From positions 124,001 through 188,000 of the forward strand of contig NZ_JAUSRB010000001.1 of assembly GCF_030811595.1 (NCBI RefSeq): DNA of 64,000 nt, given 5' to 3'. Of the stretch, positions 32,282-60,362 are shown piece by piece; within the stretch, counting starts at the first letter, position 1, and each line of letters begins with the position of its first letter. The notes below the pieces were generated by a model. That model had not been told where the DNA came from, ran no database searches, and saw only the letters and a program-made list of their open reading frames with translations. Source of the stretch: Streptosporangium brasiliense. GTDB lineage: Bacteria > Actinomycetota > Actinomycetes > Streptosporangiales > Streptosporangiaceae. A program made the position numbers and the translations under genes.

Positions 32282-35242
32282 GTGACGACGGCGACATCCG
32301 AGAGCGACGGTGCTCCGGCACACGACCGCGGCAAGCGGCCTGCCGCCCGGTTCGGCCTGCGGAACTGGCGCGTGCGGTCGCGCCTCACGGCCCTGATCCT
32401 GGTGCCGACCGTGGTGGGCGTCGCGCTCGCCGGCACCCGCGTGGTCACCTCCGTCGACAGTGTGGCGGGCTACCAGCGGACCGAGTCGGCGGCCGAATAC
32501 TCCGGCGACATCCGCGACCTCGCCCAGGCGCTCGGTTTGGAACGTGACCGGGTCGCCTGGGCCTCCTTCCAGCCCTCCAACAAGGGGCTGAAGGACAACG
32601 CCGGGGCGCAGCGCAAGACCGTCGACGCGCTGGTCGGAAAAGTGCTCCTCGACCTGCGGGCGATCGACGACTCCTACGGCCTCCGGGTGGCCGAGGCCGC
32701 CAGGGACGTGACCTACCAGCTCTCCGGCCTCAAGGAGCTGCGCGAGCTCTCCGGTACGGCCCAGGCGGAGCGGTACGGCCTCATGGTCGCCCCGCTGCTC
32801 CAGCTCCACGAGGAGCTCACGCTGGTCAGCGACGACCCGGAGATCGTCGGCAACACCCGTGCGCTCAGCGCGCTGGCCTACGCCAAGGAGGAGATCTCCA
32901 AGCAGCGGGCCCGCCTGCTGGCCGGCTACTACGCGCCCTCGCTGGTCAACGCCCAAGAGATCGAGAAGTTCATCGCCTCCCGGTCGCGCATGGAGGAGTA
33001 CAAGGCGGACTTCGGTGTCGAGGCGAGCCCGCTCAACGGCCAGCTCCTCGTCAAGGCCATGATCGACGAGAGGGTGCACCGCGCCGAGCTGACCAAGGCC
33101 AGGGCGATCGTGCTGGCCAGCGACCCGGCCAACGAGGGCCGCCTGCTGTCCGACTTCAACGAGGTCAAGCAGTGGTTCTCCGACAACGGCGCGACCATCG
33201 ACAAGATTCAGCAGGTCGAGGAGAAGGTCGCCGGTGACGTGATCACCCGGGCCCGGGACCTGGAGAAGACCGAGCAGCGCAACGCGATCGTCACCTCCGG
33301 CCTCATCCTGCTCCTGCTGCTGCTGGTCCTCGGCCTCACCGTCCTCATCGCCCGCTCGATGGTCCTGCCGCTGCGCCGGCTGCGGGCCGAGGCGCTGGAC
33401 GTCGCCGGATTCACCCTTCCCGAGGTCGTGCGCAAGCTCCGGGTCTCCGGAGACTCCCGCACCCCCGACATCGACCCCATCTCGGTCGACACCAAGGACG
33501 AGATCGGGGAGGTCGCCAAGGCCTTCGACGAGGTCCACCGGCAGGCCGTGCGGCTGGCGGCGGAGGAGTCCGAGCTCCGCTCCAACATCAGCGCGATGTT
33601 CGTCAACCTGTCACGCCGCACCCAGACCCTGGTCGAGCGGCAGATCTCGCTGATCGACGGCCTGGAGAAGGGCGAGGAGGACGGCGGCCGCCTGGCGGAC
33701 CTGTTCAAGCTCGACCACCTGGCCACCCGCATGCGCCGCAACTCCGAGAACCTCCTGGTCCTGGCCGGTCACGAGCCGACCCGCAGGCGCAGCCAGCCGG
33801 CCAAGCTCGTCGACGTCGTGCGCGCCTCGCTGTCGGAGGTCGAGGACTACGAGCGGGTCCAGGTCAAGGTGCACCGCACGATCTCGGTCGCCGGGAGCGC
33901 CGCCAACGACATCGTCCACCTGGTCGCCGAGCTGGTGGAGAACGCCATCCAGTTCTCGCCCCGGGCCAGCCAGGTCGTGGTCTCCAGCAGCATGATCGAG
34001 GGCGGTGCCGCGCTGCTCGCGGTCAGCGACGCCGGCATCGGCATGACCACCGAGGAGCTGATCGAGACCAACCGGCGCCTGGCCGACCCGCCCGTCGTCG
34101 ACGTGTCGGTGTCGCGGCGGATGGGCCTGTTCGTGGTCGGCAGGCTGGCGCTGCGCCACGGCATCCGCGTCCAGCTCCGCCCGCAGGAGATCGGTGGCCT
34201 CATCGCCATGGTCCTCTTCCCGCCGGAGCTGATCGTCGAGGCGGCGCAGCCGCCGTCCATCACCCCCTCGTGGGGCGCCGAGCCGCAGGCCCAGCAGCCC
34301 GCCCCCGATCAGTCCCCGTTCGGCCAGAACTCGTTCGGGCAGACCTCGTTCGGCCAGACCTCGGCTCCCTCGGCCTCCCCGTTCGGTCAGAACTCGTTCG
34401 GGCAGACTTCGACCCCCTCGGCCTCCCCGTTCGGTCAGACCTCGTTCGGGCAGACCTCGTTCGGGCAGATCCCCGACCCGCAGGCGTCCCCGTTCGGCTC
34501 CACGTCGTTCCCCGGCGGCCAACCGGCCCCGGACCGGCCGCAGCCGCTCAACGCCGGCCCGTCCGGCGCCCCGGCGCCCACCGGCGGATCCCCCCTCCCC
34601 AAGCGTCCGGTCCCCGGAGCGAACGGCGGCGGGAGCGTTCCAACCCCCGCGGCCCCGTCCTGGGGGCAGCCTCCCCAGGAGGATCCGGCGACCGCGTCGA
34701 TGCCCGCCGTACGGGTCTCCCCGCTCGAATCCGAGCAGGAGGAGTTCCTGCCGATCTTCGCCTCCATCGAGTCGGCTTGGTTCCGCCGGGCCGACGACAC
34801 GGGTGAGCAGGCGGCCGTCACCGAGGAGCCCGCGCCCCGGGAGACCCCCGCGCCGCCGGACCCGCTCGGCTCGGTCGACCCCGCGGTCGAGGCGCCCACG
34901 CCCCCGGACGGCATGCCGGTCCGCGAGCCGGTCACGCAGCAGGCGCCGGTCCGGGAGCAGGGCGGCTGGCAGACCGCGGCCGACGCCGGATGGCAGGCGG
35001 CCCAGGCGGCCAGCGACCCGGCCCTCGGCGGGATCACCTCGGCCGGCCTGCCCAAGCGGACCCCCAAGGCCAACCTGGTGCCCGGCGCCGCGGCCAGCGC
35101 GCCGTCCAGCCCGATGCCGTCCCTCTCGCCCGAACGGGTGCGTAGCCGTTTGTCGAGTTTCCAGCAGGGCGTACGGCGGGGCCGTGCCGAACTGAACGAG
35201 GAGACCGCCAGAACCCTGGCAGATAAGGAGGAGGGCTCGTGA
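32282..35242 (+). CDS. cvnA: Conservon 1 sensor-kinase-like protein (CvnA)
   Basis: 986 residues. After the RNWRVRSRL basic stretch come TM1 (LILVPTVVGVALAG), an extracellular nitrate/nitrite-sensor-like helical domain (about 55-330), TM2 (GLILLLLLLVLGLTVLIA), HAMP, a dimerisation helix [14 protein letters not shown], and a HATPase with LVAELVENAIQFSP, SDAGIGM and [17 protein letters not shown]. The dimerisation helix has no obvious phosphoacceptor histidine in the usual place, as in other conservon kinases. The roughly 320-residue tail is disordered, with PFGQ(N/T)SFGQTS repeats and three short conserved motifs. GTG at 32282; the stop overlaps cvnB (GTGA). It probably acts as a scaffold for the B, C and D proteins at the membrane. 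Confidence 0.92.
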   Translation: MTTATSESDGAPAHDRGKRPAARFGLRNWRVRSRLTALILVPTVVGVALAGTRVVTSVDSVAGYQRTESAAEYSGDIRDLAQALGLERDRVAWASFQPSNKGLKDNAGAQRKTVDALVGKVLLDLRAIDDSYGLRVAEAARDVTYQLSGLKELRELSGTAQAERYGLMVAPLLQLHEELTLVSDDPEIVGNTRALSALAYAKEEISKQRARLLAGYYAPSLVNAQEIEKFIASRSRMEEYKADFGVEASPLNGQLLVKAMIDERVHRAELTKARAIVLASDPANEGRLLSDFNEVKQWFSDNGATIDKIQQVEEKVAGDVITRARDLEKTEQRNAIVTSGLILLLLLLVLGLTVLIARSMVLPLRRLRAEALDVAGFTLPEVVRKLRVSGDSRTPDIDPISVDTKDEIGEVAKAFDEVHRQAVRLAAEESELRSNISAMFVNLSRRTQTLVERQISLIDGLEKGEEDGGRLADLFKLDHLATRMRRNSENLLVLAGHEPTRRRSQPAKLVDVVRASLSEVEDYERVQVKVHRTISVAGSAANDIVHLVAELVENAIQFSPRASQVVVSSSMIEGGAALLAVSDAGIGMTTEELIETNRRLADPPVVDVSVSRRMGLFVVGRLALRHGIRVQLRPQEIGGLIAMVLFPPELIVEAAQPPSITPSWGAEPQAQQPAPDQSPFGQNSFGQTSFGQTSAPSASPFGQNSFGQTSTPSASPFGQTSFGQTSFGQIPDPQASPFGSTSFPGGQPAPDRPQPLNAGPSGAPAPTGGSPLPKRPVPGANGGGSVPTPAAPSWGQPPQEDPATASMPAVRVSPLESEQEEFLPIFASIESAWFRRADDTGEQAAVTEEPAPRETPAPPDPLGSVDPAVEAPTPPDGMPVREPVTQQAPVREQGGWQTAADAGWQAAQAASDPALGGITSAGLPKRTPKANLVPGAAASAPSSPMPSLSPERVRSRLSSFQQGVRRGRAELNEETARTLADKEEGS
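34315..34500 (+). repeat. PFGQxSFGQTS coding repeats in the CvnA tail
   Basis: In-frame near-repeats of CCGTTCGGNCAG-AACTCGTTCGGGCAG encode SPFGQNSFGQTSFGQTS, then SPFGQNSFGQTSTPSA, then SPFGQTSFGQTSFGQI and SPFGSTSF. There are at least eight FGQ units over about 60 residues. The other two CvnA proteins in the window lack this block, so it is a recent expansion. Confidence 0.9.
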
Positions 35243-47908: not shown

Positions 47909-48051
47909 CAGACAGACCAAACTTCCCTGGGGTGATGTCCGGCAAAGTCTTGCCCAAGTTATTCTTGGCTGCAACACTCCTGCTTTGGTCTGCCGTGTCC
48001 GTAACGGCCGGTCTACCCTAATTACACTTGAAATTTGAAGGAGTAGCGGTC

Positions 48052-49179
48052 GTGTCCCGTGCCCGGTACACCCGTCGTCTTCCGGCCGCCGCCCTGGTCG
48101 CCGGTCTCGCTCTCGCCGTCTCGGCCTGCGGCGGAGGGTCCACGGACAGTGCCGCCGCGCCCGCCGCGAGCGCCTCGTCCGCCCAGCTCGACCCGAACAT
48201 GGACCTGTCCAAGCAGAGCATCACCATTTCGGTCTGGCCGGGCTACACCCCTGAAGACCTTCCCAAGAGGGTCAAGGACAAACTCAAGACCGATCTCAAG
48301 GTCACGCTGCACGACACCAACGAGATCATCATGGGCAAGCTGACCGCCGGCGCCGACACCGGCCTCGACGTGGCCTTCGTCTCCGGCCAGTATGCCCAGG
48401 CCCTCAACGAGGCCGGCCTGCTGGAGCCGATCCACCCCGAGCTCATCCCCAACCTGGCCAACCTCTACCCCGAGGCCAAGGAGCTCTCCTACGACAAGGG
48501 CAACGTCTTCTCCGTCCCCTACACCTGGGGCACCACCGGCATCTGCTACCGCAGCGACCTGGTGAAGACCGAGCCGACGAGCTGGAACGACATCCTCAAC
48601 CCGCCGGACGAGGCCAAGAAGAAGGTCACCATGATGACCACCGAGCGCTGGCTGGCCCTGCCCGCCGTCAAGGCGCTCGGCCTGTCGGTCAACACCAAGA
48701 GCGACGAGGACCTGGCCAAGGTCAAGGCGAAGCTGCTGGAGGCCAAGCCCAACCTGCTCCGCTACGACGACGTCGACTTCGGCAAGCGCCTCACGAGCGG
48801 CGAGGCCGTGATGGTCGAGGCGTGGGACGGCTGGTGCCCGACCAGCGAGAAGAACATCAAGTTCGTGGTGCCGAAGGAGGGCAGCGACCTCTGGGTGGAC
48901 ACGATGGTCGTGCTGAAGAGCTCCAAGAACAAGGAAGCCGCGCACGCGTTCATCAACTTCATCCTGGACCCGGAGATCCACGGCTGGGCCGCGGAGAACA
49001 TCCTCTACAAGGTCCCGAACAAGGCCGCCATGGACAAGCTGCCCAAGGACCTCGTGGAGAAGAACGTGCCGCTCCAGATGACCCCGTCGCAGCTGCTGGC
49101 CGGTGAGTCGATCATCGACCTGGGCGAGGACTCCACCAAGTTCACCCGTCTGGCCACCGAGGTTCAGGCAGCGAAGTGA
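48052..49179 (+). CDS. potD: Polyamine-type ABC binding lipoprotein (PotD-like)
   Basis: 375 residues. Signal peptide with lipobox VSACGGG after TRRLPAAALVAGLALA. The body is a spermidine/putrescine-type clamshell: ISVWPGYTPEDLP, GLDVAFVSGQY, NVFSVPYTWGTTGICYRSDLV, VMVEAWDGWCP, and AAHAFINFILDPEIHGWAAENILYKVPN. GTG at 48052 has AAGGAG 8 nt upstream; an in-frame TTG at 48028 overlaps that site. First gene of potD-potB-potC-potA. The ligand could be putrescine, spermidine or a related amine. Confidence 0.88.
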   Translation: MSRARYTRRLPAAALVAGLALAVSACGGGSTDSAAAPAASASSAQLDPNMDLSKQSITISVWPGYTPEDLPKRVKDKLKTDLKVTLHDTNEIIMGKLTAGADTGLDVAFVSGQYAQALNEAGLLEPIHPELIPNLANLYPEAKELSYDKGNVFSVPYTWGTTGICYRSDLVKTEPTSWNDILNPPDEAKKKVTMMTTERWLALPAVKALGLSVNTKSDEDLAKVKAKLLEAKPNLLRYDDVDFGKRLTSGEAVMVEAWDGWCPTSEKNIKFVVPKEGSDLWVDTMVVLKSSKNKEAAHAFINFILDPEIHGWAAENILYKVPNKAAMDKLPKDLVEKNVPLQMTPSQLLAGESIIDLGEDSTKFTRLATEVQAAK

Positions 49180-50051
49180 CAAGCTCTACCGTCTCCGGCG
49201 CGACCGCGAAGTCGCGGTCGCGCCGGTCGCGTGTGCTCGGAAGGCTGGTCTTCCTCAGCCCTGGCCTGACCTATCTGATCATCCTCATGCTGATCCCGCT
49301 GGCGCTGGTGATCAGCTACGCGTTCTTCCGCAGGGGACGTTTCGGCGGCGTCATCTACGAGCTGACCGGGGAGAACTTCACCCGGCTGCTCGATCCGATC
49401 TACCTCGACGTCGTGCTCGACTCGCTGAAGCTGGCCACGGCCGCCACGGTGATCGCCCTGCTGGTCGGCTACCCCACGGCCTACGTGATCGCCCAGCTCC
49501 CCGCGAAGTGGAAGACGGTCGCGCTGGTCGCGATCGTGCTGCCCTTCTGGACGAACTTCCTGGTCCGCATCTACGCCTGGATCGTTCTCCTCAGCGGCCC
49601 CGGGCTGGTCAACACCGCGCTGGGCAAGCTCGGCCTGGGCCCGTTCGAGTTCCTGTACAACCAGGGCACGATCGTCACCGGCCTCATCTACTCCTACCTG
49701 CCGCTCATGGTGCTCCCGCTCTACGCGGCGATCGAGAAGCTGGACCCGCAGCTCCGCGAGGCCTCGGCCAACCTCGGCGCCAGGCCGGCCCGCACCTTCG
49801 CCTCGGTGACGCTGCCGCTGACCCTGCCGGGCGTGGTCACCGGGTGCATGTTCGTCTTCGTGCCGAGCTTCGGCAACTTCGTCATCCCCGAGCTGCTCGG
49901 CGGCGGCCGCTCGATCATGGTCGGGAACCTGATCCGGGACCAGTTCCTCAAGGCGCGCGACTGGCCGTTCGGCTCCGCCCTCACGCTTGCCCTCCTCGCC
50001 GTCCTGATCGTCCTGCTGCTCCTGCAGGCCTGGAGTTCCCGCCGTGCGTAG
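49176..50051 (+). CDS. potB: Polyamine-type ABC permease PotB
   Basis: 291 residues with six helices. It starts with a basic cytoplasmic stretch (AKSRSRRSRVLGRLVFLSPG), then VLDSLKLATAATVIALLVGYPTAYVIAQLP, LPFWTNFLVRIYAWIVLL and the coupling loop EASANLGARPARTFASVTLPLTLPG. GTG at 49176 overlaps the potD stop. It forms the channel with PotC. Confidence 0.94.
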   Translation: MTSSTVSGATAKSRSRRSRVLGRLVFLSPGLTYLIILMLIPLALVISYAFFRRGRFGGVIYELTGENFTRLLDPIYLDVVLDSLKLATAATVIALLVGYPTAYVIAQLPAKWKTVALVAIVLPFWTNFLVRIYAWIVLLSGPGLVNTALGKLGLGPFEFLYNQGTIVTGLIYSYLPLMVLPLYAAIEKLDPQLREASANLGARPARTFASVTLPLTLPGVVTGCMFVFVPSFGNFVIPELLGGGRSIMVGNLIRDQFLKARDWPFGSALTLALLAVLIVLLLLQAWSSRRA

Positions 50052-50817
50052 ACCGCGTCTGCTGTACGTCCCTTTCTGGGTGACCTACATATTCCTGTAC
50101 GCGCCCATCGTGGTGCTCGTCGTCATGTCGTTCAACGCCGGCAAGTCGCCCTACACCTTCGAGGGCCTGAGCCTGAAGTGGTACGGCAAGCTCGCCGGGA
50201 ACGAGACCGTCCGTGAGGGCCTGGTCAACACCCTGATCGTGGCCGCCGGGTCCACGGCGCTCGCCACCGTGCTCGGTACCCTGCTGGCGGTGGGCCTGGC
50301 CCGTCACACCAGGTCGCGGCTGCTGGACGGGCTCGGCGTGCTGCCGGCCGTACTGCCCGACCTGGTGCTGGCCATCGGCCTGCTGGTGCTCTACGCCATG
50401 ATCAAGATGACCCTCGGCCTGCACTCGGTGCTGCTGGCCCACACGGTGTTCGGCATGGCCTTCGTGACCGCGGTGGTCCGCACCAGGCTCACCCACGCCG
50501 ACACCTCCCTGGAGGAGGCGTCCAGGGACCTCGGCGCGACGCCGCTGACGACGTTCGTCCGCGTCACGCTGCCCCAGCTCATGCCCGGCATCGCGGCGGG
50601 GGCCCTGCTGGCGTTCACGCTCTCCATCGACGAGTTCGTGATCGCCTTCTTCACCGCGGCGCCGACCACCCCCACCTTGCCCATCGTCATCTACTCAATG
50701 GTCCGCTTCGGGGTCACCCCGGAGATCAACGCGCTGGCGACCCTGCTGCTGGCCGTGAGCTTCACCGTGGTGATCGTGGCCCAGCGGATGACCCGACTGA
50801 CGGAGTCGCTGTCCTAA
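50044..50817 (+). CDS. potC: Polyamine-type ABC permease PotC
   Basis: 257 residues, six helices, and the family N-terminus LYAPIVVLVVMSFN with KSPYTFEGLSLKWYGKL. The EAA loop is EASRDLGATPLTTFVRVTLPQLMPG, followed by LLAFTLSIDEFVIAFFT. GTG at 50044 overlaps potB by 8 bp, and its stop overlaps potA (TAATG). Confidence 0.94.
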   Translation: MRRPRLLYVPFWVTYIFLYAPIVVLVVMSFNAGKSPYTFEGLSLKWYGKLAGNETVREGLVNTLIVAAGSTALATVLGTLLAVGLARHTRSRLLDGLGVLPAVLPDLVLAIGLLVLYAMIKMTLGLHSVLLAHTVFGMAFVTAVVRTRLTHADTSLEEASRDLGATPLTTFVRVTLPQLMPGIAAGALLAFTLSIDEFVIAFFTAAPTTPTLPIVIYSMVRFGVTPEINALATLLLAVSFTVVIVAQRMTRLTESLS

Positions 50818-52439
50818 TGCTGCAGATCACAGGTGTCAGCCGCCGGTTCGGCGACGTCACGGCGCTGTCGGAGATCTCCCTGGAGATCCGGCAGGGGGAG
50901 TTCTTCGCGCTGCTGGGCCCCAGCGGCTGCGGCAAGACCACGCTCCTGCGGATCCTGGCGGGCTTCGAGTCCCCCGACTCGGGCACCGTCACGCTCGACG
51001 GCGCCGACCTGCTCAGCCAGGCCGCGCACCGCCGCCCGGTCAACCTCATGTTCCAGTCCTACGCGCTGTTCCCGCACATGAGCGTGGCCAAGAACATCGC
51101 CTACGGCCTGGAGCGGGAGAAGCTGCCCAAGGCCGAGATCCGCGAGCGGGTGGAGGAGGTCCTGGAGAAGGTCGGCCTGAGCGCGATGGCCAAGCGCAGA
51201 CCGCAGCAGCTCTCCGGCGGCCAGCGGCAGCGTGTCGCGCTGGCCCGCGCGATCGTGAAGCGGCCGCGGCTGCTGCTGCTGGACGAGCCGCTGTCCGCGC
51301 TGGACAAGAAGGTCCGCGCCGAGATGCAGCTTGAGCTCAAGCGGCTCCAGCACGAGGTCGGCATCACCTTCGTCGTGGTCACCCACGACCAGGAGGAGGC
51401 CATGTCGCTGGCCGACCGGATCGCGGTCTTCAGCGCGGGCAAGGTGGAGCAGGTGGACGCGCCGGTGACGCTGTACGAGCGGCCCCGCACGCCGTTCGTC
51501 GCCGACTTCGTGGGCGCCAACAACCTCTTCGAGGGCAAGGCGTGCGCGGACGGCCTGTCCAGCGACGCGCTCGGCGTCCTGCCCGGCCTGTCCGACCTGG
51601 AGGAGGGCGCGCCGGCGCTGCTCGCCGTACGGCCGGAGCGGCTCAGGCTGGTCAGCTGGACCCCGGCGGACACCGAGGACGAGACGGCCGAGGAGACGGT
51701 CGCCGAGGACGCGACACCGGAGGGTGAGAGCGTCGAAGAGACGGCGGCCGGGGCCGAGGGCGCCGACGGCACCGAGGACGCCGACGACACCGAGGGCGCA
51801 GAAGGCGACGAGGGCGCCGAAGCCGCCGAAGACGCGGAGGGCACCCAGGACGCGGCGGGTGACGAGAGCGCCGAGAGCAGCGAGGACGCTGAAGGCGTTG
51901 AGAGCGCTGAGGACGTCAAGGACGCCGAGAGCGCCGAGGACGTCAAGGACGCGGACGCTGAGACTGCTGAGGACACCGAGGCCGCCGAGGGCACCCAGGA
52001 CGCGGCGGACGCTGAAGGCGTTGGGAGTGCTGAGGGCGCCGAGGCCGCCGAGGACGCGGCGGATGCTGAAGATGTTGAGAGTGCTGAGGACGTCAAGGAC
52101 GCTGAGGACGTCGAGGACGCTGGAGGCGTTGAGAGCGCTGAGGAAGCGGCGGACGCGGACGCCGAAGACCCTGAAGGCGCTGAAGACGCTGAAGACGCTG
52201 AAGGCGTCGAGGACGCTGGAGGCGCCGAGGCGGCCGTGAGCCCGGTGGCGGGGGAGGGCGTGCTGCGGGGGAAGGTCGCGGACGTCAGCTTCTACGGCGG
52301 CATCTCACACGTCTCGGTCCAGGTGGACGGTCGCCCGACGCCGGTCCTGGTGGCCACGCAAGGGGCCACCCAGGTCCAGGCGGGCTCCTCGGTCGCCCTC
52401 ACCTGGGCGGCCGAGGATGGGGTGCTGATCCCTCAATGA
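50817..52439 (+). CDS. potA: Polyamine-type ABC ATPase PotA with acidic repeat insertion
   Basis: 540 residues, against about 350-380 for the family. Residues 1-281 are a normal PotA: Walker A LGPSGCGKTTLL, Q-loop LMFQSYALFPHM, signature LSGGQRQRVALARAI, Walker B LLLLDEPLSALDKK, H-loop VVTHDQEEAMSLAD, and the first part of the TOBE region (FVGANNLFEGKA, LLAVRPERLRLVSW). Residues about 286-472 are almost only Ala, Glu, Asp, Gly, Ser, Thr and Val (AEDVKDAE-like units). The TOBE domain then resumes with LRGKVADVSFYGGISHVSVQVDG and ends normally. The reading frame is intact throughout, so the insertion is translated. ATG at 50817. Confidence 0.93.
   Translation: MLQITGVSRRFGDVTALSEISLEIRQGEFFALLGPSGCGKTTLLRILAGFESPDSGTVTLDGADLLSQAAHRRPVNLMFQSYALFPHMSVAKNIAYGLEREKLPKAEIRERVEEVLEKVGLSAMAKRRPQQLSGGQRQRVALARAIVKRPRLLLLDEPLSALDKKVRAEMQLELKRLQHEVGITFVVVTHDQEEAMSLADRIAVFSAGKVEQVDAPVTLYERPRTPFVADFVGANNLFEGKACADGLSSDALGVLPGLSDLEEGAPALLAVRPERLRLVSWTPADTEDETAEETVAEDATPEGESVEETAAGAEGADGTEDADDTEGAEGDEGAEAAEDAEGTQDAAGDESAESSEDAEGVESAEDVKDAESAEDVKDADAETAEDTEAAEGTQDAADAEGVGSAEGAEAAEDAADAEDVESAEDVKDAEDVEDAGGVESAEEAADADAEDPEGAEDAEDAEGVEDAGGAEAAVSPVAGEGVLRGKVADVSFYGGISHVSVQVDGRPTPVLVATQGATQVQAGSSVALTWAAEDGVLIPQ
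51672..52232 (+). repeat. Acidic Ala/Glu/Asp-coding repeat inside potA
   Basis: About 560 bp of degenerate GAC-GCN-GAG-type triplets with longer recurrences such as GAGAGCGCTGAGGACGTC and GGCACCCAGGACGCGGC (twice). Encoded peptide units include ESAEDVKDAE, EGTQDAA, EDAEGVE. Length is a multiple of three and no stop interrupts it. It splits the two halves of the TOBE domain. Confidence 0.92.
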
Positions 52440-53041
52440 GACGTCTTGAGCGGGTTGTTCGTGACGGTCCTGGCGTAGGAAAGGATCAGTTCCGCCGCCT
52501 CCTGCGGGCCGATCACCGGGTGGCGGGCCGTTATGCGGTAACCGTACGCATCTTCGAGCGCGACGAGGTTGCGCGCGATGACGAGGGAGTCGCCGGACAG
52601 CGTGAAGGTCCCCAGGGCGGCCCCGGTCTCCAGGACGCTCTGATACATGGAGACCTGGCGGTCGTAGAGCGTGGTGAGCAGCAGGGCGTACATCCTGTTG
52701 CGGGCGGCGGCCCCGCCGAGTTCGTTGAGCAGCCGCACGTCCGGGTCGTCCGGCCCGTGCGGCAGGCCCGAGCGGACGACGACGATGAGCTTGTCGGCGG
52801 GGTCGCGCATGCCGCTGATCCGCTTGAGACGCTGCTCATAGAAACGTTCCATCCCGGCGTGATGGGCGTCCACCAGCAGCTCGCTCAAGTTGGGGTAGTG
52901 GTAGAGAACCGCTCCGGAGGTCAGACCGGCCTCCTCGGCGACGTGGTTGAGGTGCACTCCCTCAGTGCCGTGCCGGATGATCGCCCGGTGTGCGGCTGCA
53001 ATGAGATCCAGGCGACGATCCGCCCGGCTCTTGCGCGTCAT
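52433..53041 (-). CDS. TetR-family transcriptional regulator
   Basis: 202 residues. N-terminal HTH: DLIAAAHRAIIRHGTEGVHLNHVAEEAGLTSGAVLYHYPNLSELL in outline (residues 10-55), a BetI-like TetR pattern. The C-terminal helical ligand domain begins about residue 60. ATG at 53041 (MTRKSRADRR) with GGGGG before it is preferred over GTG 53065. It converges on potA with a 7-bp overlap and is divergent from the glycosyltransferase-ALDH genes. It may respond to an amine or aldehyde (inference). Confidence 0.88.
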   Translation of the reverse strand: MTRKSRADRRLDLIAAAHRAIIRHGTEGVHLNHVAEEAGLTSGAVLYHYPNLSELLVDAHHAGMERFYEQRLKRISGMRDPADKLIVVVRSGLPHGPDDPDVRLLNELGGAAARNRMYALLLTTLYDRQVSMYQSVLETGAALGTFTLSGDSLVIARNLVALEDAYGYRITARHPVIGPQEAAELILSYARTVTNNPLKTSH

Positions 53042-53116
53042 AATCCCCCACTCGTTGAAAACCACGCTCTGTGCCGGGGTCCATAGTGACCGCTTTCCGG
53101 CGGTTTAGCTAGCTCT

Positions 53117-54473: not shown

Positions 54474-55880
54474 ATGGGCAAGTTGATCAACCCGGCAGAC
54501 GGCCAGCTCCTCAGGGAGGTGGCCGACACCCCGGTCCCCGAGGTCGCGGCCGCCGTACGGCGGGCGCGCGCGGCGTACGAGGAATGGAGCAGGGCCACCC
54601 CGGCCGAGCGGGCCAAGGTGATGCTGCGCTTCGCCGACCTCGTCGAGGCCGACGCCGAGGAGCTGACCCGGCTGGAGGTCGCCGAGACCGGCAAGCCGGC
54701 GGCGGTGTTCCGCGACGGCGAGCTGCCGTTCGCGGCCGACAACCTCCGCTTCTTCGCCGGGGCGGCCCGCTCGCTGGAGGGCACCGGGGCCGGCGTGCTC
54801 AGCTCCGGCTACACCTCGGTGCTGGTCCGCCGCCCGGTCGGGGTCGTCGGGTCGATCGCCCCGTGGAACTTCCCGCTCGTGATGGCCATCTGGAAGATCG
54901 GCCCCGCCCTCGCCGCGGGCAACGCGGTGGTCATCAAGCCCGCCCCGCAGACGCCGGGCACCACGCTCCGGCTGGCCGAGCTGTTCGCCGGGGCGGGGGC
55001 GCCCGAGGGCCTGCTCCAGGTCGTCCTCGGCGACGCCGAGGTGGGTGAGGCTCTGGTCACCGATCCGGGTGTGGACATGGTGAGCGTGACCGGCTCCACC
55101 GAGACCGGCCGCGCCGTCATGCGCGGGGCCGCGGGGTCGCTGAAGCGGGTCCACCTGGAGCTCGGCGGCAAGGCGCCGGCGCTGGTGTTCGGCGACGCGG
55201 ACCTGGCCGAGATGGCCAGGGGAGTGGCCATGGGCGCCACCTACAACACCGGCCAGGACTGCACGGCCGCGACCCGCGTCTACATCGCCCGGGAGGTGTA
55301 CGGCGAGGCGGTCGAGGCGCTGCGCGAGACTCTGGCGAAGATCAAGGCGGGGGACCCCTGGGACGAGGCGACCGACATCGGTCCGCTGATCTCCGCCGGG
55401 CACCGGGCCCGCGTGCACGGGTTCGTCGAGCGCGCCGTCGCCGCGGGCGCCTCGCTCCTGTGCGGCGGCGCCCCCCTGGACGGCCCCGGCTTCCACTACC
55501 CGCCCACGCTGATCTCCGGCGCCCGCCAGGACAGCGAGATCGTCCAGGGTGAGCTTTTCGGGCCGGTGTTGGTGGCTCTGCCGTTCGACGGTGAGGACGA
55601 GGCGGTACGGCTGGCCAACGACACCCCCTACGGTCTGGCCTCCTCGGTCTGGTCCAGCGACGTGGCCCGGGCGCTGCGCGTCTCGCACCGCCTCGACGTG
55701 GGCGTGACCTGGGTCAACGACCATCTGCCGATCGCCTCCGAGGCGCCGCACGGTGGGGTCAAGGGCAGCGGATTCGGCAAGGACATGAGCCAGGAGGCGG
55801 TCCAGGAGTACTCCGTGACGCGCCATCTGATGATCAAACACCAGGCTCCCGAGGCGCGAGACTCCTTCCGGCCGGCCTGA
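54474..55880 (+). CDS. Aldehyde dehydrogenase (gamma-aminobutyraldehyde type)
   Basis: 468 residues, ALDH superfamily. PWNFPLVMAIWKIGPALAAGN, VSVTGSTETGRAV, general base in LELGGKAP, nucleophile cysteine in YNTGQDCTAATR, then GELFGPVLV and a C-terminal HGGVKGSGFGKDMSQEAVQEYS. It most resembles 4-aminobutyraldehyde dehydrogenases (PatD/Prr), which oxidise the product of putrescine transamination or oxidation to GABA. Thirty-four bp after the glycosyltransferase gene and near the Pot importer, so an amine-catabolic role is likely. ATG at 54474. Confidence 0.88.
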   Translation: MGKLINPADGQLLREVADTPVPEVAAAVRRARAAYEEWSRATPAERAKVMLRFADLVEADAEELTRLEVAETGKPAAVFRDGELPFAADNLRFFAGAARSLEGTGAGVLSSGYTSVLVRRPVGVVGSIAPWNFPLVMAIWKIGPALAAGNAVVIKPAPQTPGTTLRLAELFAGAGAPEGLLQVVLGDAEVGEALVTDPGVDMVSVTGSTETGRAVMRGAAGSLKRVHLELGGKAPALVFGDADLAEMARGVAMGATYNTGQDCTAATRVYIAREVYGEAVEALRETLAKIKAGDPWDEATDIGPLISAGHRARVHGFVERAVAAGASLLCGGAPLDGPGFHYPPTLISGARQDSEIVQGELFGPVLVALPFDGEDEAVRLANDTPYGLASSVWSSDVARALRVSHRLDVGVTWVNDHLPIASEAPHGGVKGSGFGKDMSQEAVQEYSVTRHLMIKHQAPEARDSFRPA

Positions 55881-59719: not shown

Positions 59720-60266
59720 CGCCGGAATGACGTCGACGAAGATCGTTGTCGCCGGAGGATTCGGTGTCGGCAAGACGACCTTCGTCGGCGCGGTCTCCGA
59801 GATCATGCCGTTGACCACGGAAGCGGTCATGACGGAGGCCAGTGCGGAGGTCGACGACCTCTCGCACATCCCGACCAAGCGGACCACCACGGTGGCCATG
59901 GACTTCGGTCGGGTCTCGCTGGACCGGGATCTGATCCTGTACCTGTTCGGTACGCCGGGTCAGCACCGGTTCTGGTTCATGTGGGACGACCTCGTGAAGG
60001 GCGCGATCGGCGCGATCGTGCTGGTCGACACCCGGCGGCTGGCCGACAGCTTCCCGGCGATCGACTACTTCGAGGAGGCCGGGCTGCCCTTCGTGGTGGC
60101 GCTCAACGGCTTCGGCGGCTCGCACATCCACGGTGAGGAGGAGGTGCGGGAGGCTCTGACGATCTCCCCGCACATCCCCGTCGTCCGGACCGACGCCCGG
60201 TCCCGCGACGCCGTGAAGTCGACCTTGATCACCTTGGTCGAGCACGTCCTCACGCTCCGGGTCTGA
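59700..60266 (+). CDS. cvnD: Conservon 3 small GTPase (CvnD)
   Basis: 188 residues. P-loop AGGFGVGKTTFVGAVSE, switch KRTTTVAMDFGR, FGTPGQHRFWFMWDDL, and NGFGGS where a canonical NKxD would be, so the guanine-specificity motif is degenerate as in conservon 1. GTG at 59700 aligns with the conservon 1 start (MGFAGS versus MDFAGS) and follows AAAGGG; an in-frame ATG at 59658 is rejected. Followed 4 bp later by a strong terminator. Confidence 0.95.
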   Translation: MGFAGSDAGMTSTKIVVAGGFGVGKTTFVGAVSEIMPLTTEAVMTEASAEVDDLSHIPTKRTTTVAMDFGRVSLDRDLILYLFGTPGQHRFWFMWDDLVKGAIGAIVLVDTRRLADSFPAIDYFEEAGLPFVVALNGFGGSHIHGEEEVREALTISPHIPVVRTDARSRDAVKSTLITLVEHVLTLRV

Positions 60267-60269
60267 GAC

Positions 60270-60308
60270 CGTGGCGTGGGGCCCGCCACCAGGCGGCCCC
60301 ACGCCACG
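60270..60308 (+). terminator. 14-bp stem terminator after conservon 3
   Basis: CGTGGCGTGGGGCC (60270-60283) pairs perfectly with 60295-60308 across 11 nt. It directly follows the cvnD stop. The 3' arm merges into a 13-bp tandem repeat. Confidence 0.8.
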
Positions 60309-60362
60309 CCCGTACGCCACGCCCGTACGCCACGCCCGTACGCCACGCCCGTACGCCACGGC
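60298..60362. repeat. 13-bp tandem repeat beside the terminator
   Basis: CGTACGCCACGCC is repeated head to tail at 60311, 60324, 60337 and 60350, preceded by a partial copy at 60301 formed by the terminator's 3' arm. The last copy is slightly changed (CGCCACGGC). It ends about 25 bp before the convergent permease gene's stop. Confidence 0.9.

Follow-up and report, generated by a model that had tools for sequence, protein, structure and literature searches.

In the DNA analysed here (the window, a stretch of 64,000 nucleotides), a PotA-like ATPase carries an insert of turning-over repeats between two strands of its TOBE domain. Computation shows that inserts recur at one TOBE site in three separate parts of the PotA tree of the family and remain acidic despite the change of their sequence. 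The explanation tentatively preferred here is that a permissive TOBE loop, grown by repeat slippage and held acidic, modulates PotA electrostatically, most likely as feedback from cytosolic polycations. Neutral growth in a permissive loop is a close rival, nearly as likely as the sensor reading.

Pot-like operon and neighbouring genes

Genes of PotD-, PotB-, PotC- and PotA-like proteins are adjacent in the window (48028-52439), with potA the last. The features are the following:

48028..49179, + strand: PotD-like substrate-binding protein gene, 383 aa (Pfam SBP_bac_8; top NCBIfam model PotD NF007048, 120 bits, cut-off 582)
49176..50051, + strand: PotB-like permease gene, 291 aa (Pfam BPD_transp_1; top NCBIfam model PotB, 256.5 bits, cut-off 348)
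50044..50817, + strand: PotC-like permease gene, 257 aa (top NCBIfam model PotC, 232.2 bits, cut-off 326; stop overlaps the potA start)
50817..52439, + strand: PotA-like ATPase gene carrying the insert, 540 aa (ABC_tran and TOBE_2 above cut-offs; TIGR01187 potA 355.5 bits, cut-off 355.6)
51666..52235, + strand: acidic repeat insert of PotA, residues 284-473 (composition, low pLDDT, repeat periodicity)
52433..53065, - strand: TetR-family regulator gene, convergent to potA (Pfam TetR_N)
54474..55880, + strand: aminobutyraldehyde dehydrogenase gene, putrescine degradation, ~2 kb downstream of potA (NCBIfam NF010000, 623 bits, cut-off 615)

The ATPase scores 137 bits against ABC_tran (Pfam cut-off 25), and the motifs GPSGCGKTT (Walker A) and LSGGQ are present in the protein. 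Its match to Pfam TOBE_2 (38.9 bits, cut-off 21) covers the profile only from position 14 on. Scored in full with its insert, the protein falls 0.1 bits below the cut-off of the potA subfamily model, and the PhnT2 model of NCBIfam scores 4 bits above the potA model; none of the four Pot proteins of the window attains its NCBIfam equivalog cut-off. Nevertheless, a polyamine is the likely substrate of this importer, since PotB and PotC are the top models for the two permeases, and a gene close by encodes an aminobutyraldehyde dehydrogenase that exceeds its curated cut-off. The TetR-family protein could possibly regulate the pot operon. In all 15 same-genus loci tested, potC is located directly 5' of potA. 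The nearest named relative found belongs to Sphaerisporangium fuscum (Streptosporangiaceae; 79% over the ATPase part), very near records being possibly absent from the search.

Position, composition and repeats of the insert

The potA reading frame (50817-52439, + strand) is open throughout, and the insert lies in frame. An earlier note on this DNA had described an in-frame, stop-free acidic repeat of about 190 residues at 51672-52232, and such a repeat is present with slightly wider limits, residues 284-473 (51666-52235); the earlier limits correspond to the first base of residue 286 (51672) and to a base within residue 472 (52232). The 190 residues comprise A 51, E 48, D 33, G 20, T 11, V 11, S 9, K 3, P 2 and Q 2. 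The earlier wording "nearly pure Ala/Asp/Glu" is overstated, as these three account for 132 of 190 residues (69%). With 81 D/E against 3 K, the net charge of the insert is -78. PotA without it has 350 aa, so that the insert adds 54%, in agreement with the earlier estimate of half again.

The recurring units described earlier are likewise found, with a periodicity beyond chance. Codon identity within the insert at lags of 3, 6 and 18 codons gives z = 6.8, 6.7 and 7.0 relative to 500 shuffles of the codons; recurrence is seen at distances of 3, 6, 9, 12, 18 and 21 codons, and TRF reports degenerate 9-, 18- and 54-bp arrays within 51753-52230. GC3 is 0.98 ahead of the insert and 0.77 inside it. 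Within the insert at 51936-52205, GC3 falls from 0.80 to 0.67 and 0.53 in consecutive 30-codon blocks, with GCT, GAA and GTT codons; the lowest block is close to the 3' end of the insert. Other frames across the insert are open as well, which is usual at 71% GC.

Two further repeats were observed in the window. A 13-bp unit (ACGCCACGCCCGT) is repeated perfectly 4.6 times at 60301-60360, in apparently non-coding DNA shortly behind the end of an ORF at 60266. At 34317-34510, a degenerate repeat with a period of 48-63 bp encodes FGQTS units in an ORF of 986 aa (32282-35242).

Predicted fold

AlphaFold2 was run on a 24-row alignment consisting of the window PotA and the 23 of 80 relative loci parseable by script; the rows were selected by motifs, and motif invariance within this alignment is therefore no evidence. 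As far as residue 280, each block of 10 residues has a pLDDT above 85, and from residue 481 on the values exceed 93; across nearly all of the insert, the 10-residue blocks lie at 41-49. Confident TOBE strands flank the insert at 277-280 and 480-493. The insert is thus predicted to be intrinsically disordered, and it fits the description of a D/E-rich disordered segment in its mostly low pLDDT, its entropy of 2.49 bits and its charge of -0.40 to -0.42 per residue. Foldseek places the E. coli PotA chains 8zx1_A and 8y5f_A at ranks 1 and 3, with an alignment of 555 columns spanning both TOBE halves; rank 2 is an FbpC. The flanking strands, the TOBE_2 match beginning at position 14 and the net charge together uphold the structural claim of the earlier note, a PotA-like ATPase with a polyanionic insert between its two TOBE halves.

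Linker length among relatives

The linker was defined as the stretch between the RPE and SFYGG motifs. A PotA orthologue is found in 15 of 16 same-genus genomes (E 1e-110 or better), with linkers of 15, 15, 15, 15, 17, 30, 34, 53, 81, 139, 159, 163, 201 and 214 residues and one more truncated where its contig stops. Of the 220 genomes of the family sample, 77 contain a match. Outside the window's genus, the linkers reach 312-364 residues in the five matching genomes of the genera g61 and g38 (four and one, respectively), and two genomes of genus g4 have long linkers of 102 and 95 residues, besides others of 41 and 38. The order sample yields a match in 118 of 345 genomes; in 18 of them, the match to a short-linker PotA breaks off at the linker while the contig continues (g1 9, g61 4, g38 1, g4 4 of 54).

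The tree was built from 78 PotAs with the linker excluded: 76 family rows unselected for the insert, plus L178 and L179, which were added because the order-sample scan had flagged them. L139, truncated at the end of its contig, and L158, whose sequence was not parsed, are absent from it. Linkers of at least 36 residues occur in 17 of the 78 PotAs and are distributed over a g4 clade (4 rows), a g61+g38 clade (5 rows) and the fork of the window's genus (8 rows). Within this unresolved fork, they are spread over several subclades with short ones in between. The long/short label needs at least four changes on the tree. The remaining 61 PotAs have linkers shorter than 36 residues; since these are the majority of orthologues, the long loop is dispensable for import.

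The inserts of the five g61/g38 PotAs (L134, L140, L142, L143, L150) contain a conserved stretch of ~50 residues, DLRxAVKxAMxGExxAEAMAEVVxxAVAGVVAKVVAEVV..., amid divergent acidic sequence. Two copies were scanned against Pfam, and no family exceeded its cut-off (best TetR_C_16, E = 0.08). This stretch is likely a folding or binding helix.

Conservation of charge and turnover of sequence

The earlier note had proposed a homologue search for acidic TOBE inserts in PotA, and all 17 linkers of at least 36 residues proved to be net negative, from -9 to -88. Charge per residue ranges from -0.16 to -0.39 in the 15 long linkers tabulated. The long linkers are often built of unrelated units, such as AEDVKDAE, VDGDDPADEEA, EEPVSEKPES, DQ/DT and DETG. 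A basic exception among the shorter ones is the 34-residue linker of L015, the PotA of genome G001 (net +7, KRAKRVKRL...). Its tree sister L013, the PotA of genome G011, carries an insert composed almost entirely of (DQ)n/(DT)n.

In five close pairs, the pN/pS of the linker is 0.81, 0.69, 0.46, 0.70 and 0.50, while that of the first 230 residues (NBD) is 0, 0.22, 0.19, 0.31 and 0.15. Linker differences are inflated at synonymous and non-synonymous sites alike, an effect to be expected from repeat turnover and a doubtful alignment. Charge per residue is near constant in the three close pairs compared (-0.333/-0.341, -0.354/-0.338 and -0.248/-0.253). Simulated point mutation of equal amount gave at most 1 in 1000 outcomes as acidic in each of five runs, although this is not a full null, as unit duplication and deletion would keep the charge without selection. 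The constancy of charge supports selection on charge without proving it, because copying and loss of units could also hold the composition.

In the window linker, codons with A in the first position are rarer where they give Lys/Asn (3/85) than elsewhere (23/110; p = 0.00026). Linker by linker, Lys/Asn are depleted at p < 0.05 in 5 of 17, and the five g61/g38 linkers show no depletion; codons within repeats are not independent. Pooled over the 17 linkers, the effect is small (146/1110 vs 255/1394, p = 0.0005). In the preferred explanation, charge would be the selected property of the insert.

The possibility that the insert replaces a lost acidic regulatory domain was considered and rejected: the linker-less domain is slightly more acidic with a long loop (mean -4.4, n=12) than with a short one (-1.75, n=56), in a comparison made without cut rows, unparsed rows and two rows of intermediate length. 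The charge of the regulatory domain, linker aside, is +3 to -12 in the parsed relatives and 0 to -12 in the 44 of 80 more distant relatives parseable by pattern.

Specificity to PotA and to the family

Seven genomes chosen for their insert were scanned with TOBE_2, giving 44 hits. In the 7 PotA orthologues among them, the domain is split by the insert, and the match accordingly begins at profile position 12-15. No insert at the same site was found in the 37 other hits of these genomes, of which 35 start at positions 1-4 (judged by profile coordinates) and two weak ones, starting from 14, were read directly. For these seven genomes, an acidic insert as a general property of TOBE ATPases is thereby ruled out.

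The genome itself was sampled over 824 kb (7.9%), that is, the window and 38 stretches of 20 kb; the 554 ORFs were called by a simple GC3 rule, and some calls are surely wrong. The insert holds the most acidic 80-residue window of this sample (-0.42 per residue, the next ORF reaching -0.25) and is the second lowest in entropy. An 80-residue window below 3.0 bits occurs in 17 of the 554 ORFs, some of these 17 being probably wrong frames; the PotA insert alone has a charge below -0.2 per residue, most of the other low-entropy stretches being close to neutral or basic. A search of the whole genome at E up to 10 gave only two matches to the insert elsewhere, a collagen-like Gly-Pro repeat (0.0017) and one at 5.8. 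On this 7.9% sample and the scarcity of matches, a genome-wide fashion for acidic repeats was rejected. The collagen-like protein (L180, G000:C2:2427500-2428900) consists of Gly-Pro-Ala and Gly-Pro-Glu/Gln repeats and has a signal-like N-terminus.

Among class-level relatives, 16 hits whose alignment ended before the query end (50-71% identity; 15 from other families, 1 from another gene of the same family) were fetched as a part of such hits, and none contains a strongly acidic insert. One of them, L262 from another family, has a longer Gly/Ser-rich linker that is weakly charged (about -0.1 per residue). As far as sampled, the acidic loop goes with the Pot-like transporter in Streptosporangiaceae, as follows from the insert-free state of the other TOBE hits and of the class-level relatives. 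Among the literature matches listed, the titles and abstract openings of open-licence articles make no mention of an acidic insert in PotA.

Possible functions of the loop

According to the preferred explanation, two loops per transporter (net about -156) would be located in the cytosol below the ATPase dimer and would attract polyamines, as well as Mg2+ and K+, according to their free level. At plentiful polyamine, the loop-bound polycation could favour the inhibited state of the regulatory domains, and the loop of the window would then amplify the kind of inhibition that spermidine is reported to exert on E. coli PotABC. Loop length may set the strength of inhibition, in which case slippage could act as a tuning knob. 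With -78 per subunit at the TOBE loop, a strengthening of the electrostatic sensing of cytosolic polycations would be the simplest functional reading. Feedback was one of three roles proposed in the earlier note, and it is the best supported of them owing to the inhibition by spermidine in E. coli; that the regulatory domain is the site of this inhibition is a suggestion of the authors cited (PMC11414716).

A more far-reaching form of this explanation appears doubtful: PotA of this family would be a slippage-tunable disordered polyelectrolyte sensor, with import gated by polyamine condensation on the loop, repeat number as the set-point, and at least three origins (by parsimony) at the same TOBE loop. 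The orthologues, whose linkers are 15 to 364 residues long, of known charge and at one site, form a ready-made natural series for testing the idea that cytosolic polyamine shuts off import through an acidic domain, which for the acidic regulatory domain of E. coli is put forward as a suggestion (PMC11414716). The loop would also be an example of a disordered segment inside a transporter ATPase whose charge is kept while its sequence is not.

The closest alternative, almost on a par with feedback, is neutral repeat expansion. Slippage would make the repeats, anything soluble would be tolerated, and acidity would survive through the purge of sticky or insoluble sequences and the copying of units. 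The fast turnover of the linker (pN/pS 0.46-0.81 vs 0-0.31 in the NBD of the same pairs) is consistent with this, and so are the range of 15-214 residues within one genus, the sisters L178 and L165, with nearly identical cores and linkers of 41 and 102 residues, and the weakly charged Gly/Ser-rich linker of L262. However, the growth is confined to PotA and is seen in 0 of 37 other TOBE hits of the seven genomes (mostly by profile coordinates), and 17 of 17 long linkers are acidic, whereas most other low-entropy stretches of the genome sample are not.

A tether or entropic bristle is rather improbable. Here the loop would keep the ATPase soluble, repel nucleic acid or recruit a cationic partner (e.g., polyamine catabolic enzymes) without sensing polyamine. 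An acidic disordered segment is reported to raise stability and to inhibit nonspecific RNA binding (PMC8348266), and the conserved stretch of ~50 residues is the type of motif that a partner could bind, so that this reading is best for the g61/g38 inserts. The long inserts within the window's genus, however, revealed no motif in common, and the conserved g61 stretch has no Pfam family over the cut-off. A tether was one of the three roles proposed in the earlier note.

The cytoplasmic sink, also proposed earlier, is highly improbable by arithmetic. A loop storing imported polyamine could, at net -78 per subunit, neutralise ~26 spermidines, or at most ~52 per transporter with its two PotA subunits; 1000 transporters would hold ~5x10^4 molecules, less than a tenth of an assumed pool of 1 mM in 1 cubic micrometre. 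Least credible of all is an assembly or gene-calling artefact: the DNA is of low complexity and other frames are open too, but inserts are found at the same place in independent genomes, some of few contigs (G011 1, G008 4), the frame stays open and the fold and both halves of TOBE carry on at either side, and same-genus orthologues with loops of 15 to 214 residues show that the presence of the insert is not an assembly error, only its exact repeat copy number being something that could still be wrong.

Comparison with known systems

ATPases of the MalK/UgpC/FbpC/ModC type have the same architecture as the window PotA, with a C-terminal regulatory domain. They differ from it at the site of the insert, where the 37 other TOBE_2 hits of the seven genomes lack a split or, on direct reading, an insert. 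The regulatory domains of MalK-type ATPases are control points, acted upon by EIIAGlc in MalK and by molybdate in ModC.

E. coli PotA, a part of the PotABC-D spermidine importer (PDB 8y5f, 8zx1), also consists of an NBD followed by a regulatory/TOBE domain, but its solved chains have 358-378 residues instead of 540, and the identity in the fold alignment is 27%. Spermidine markedly reduces the ATPase activity of E. coli PotABC, and the regulation domain of PotA, which is called extensively negative, turns by ~15 degrees upon ATP binding (PMC11414716). While calling for further work, the cryo-EM study puts forward the suggestion that spermidine binds this negative domain and locks the transporter in an inhibited state (PMC11414716).

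The insert also resembles the D/E-rich "electronegative clusters", which are repetitive, disordered and strongly acidic and for which electrostatic modulation is described (PMC8348266). One such acidic disordered segment raised the stability of an RNA-binding protein and inhibited its nonspecific RNA binding (PMC8348266). These clusters are described for RNA- and DNA-binding proteins (PMC8348266), whereas the insert of the window is located inside the folded regulatory domain of the ATPase of a cation importer.
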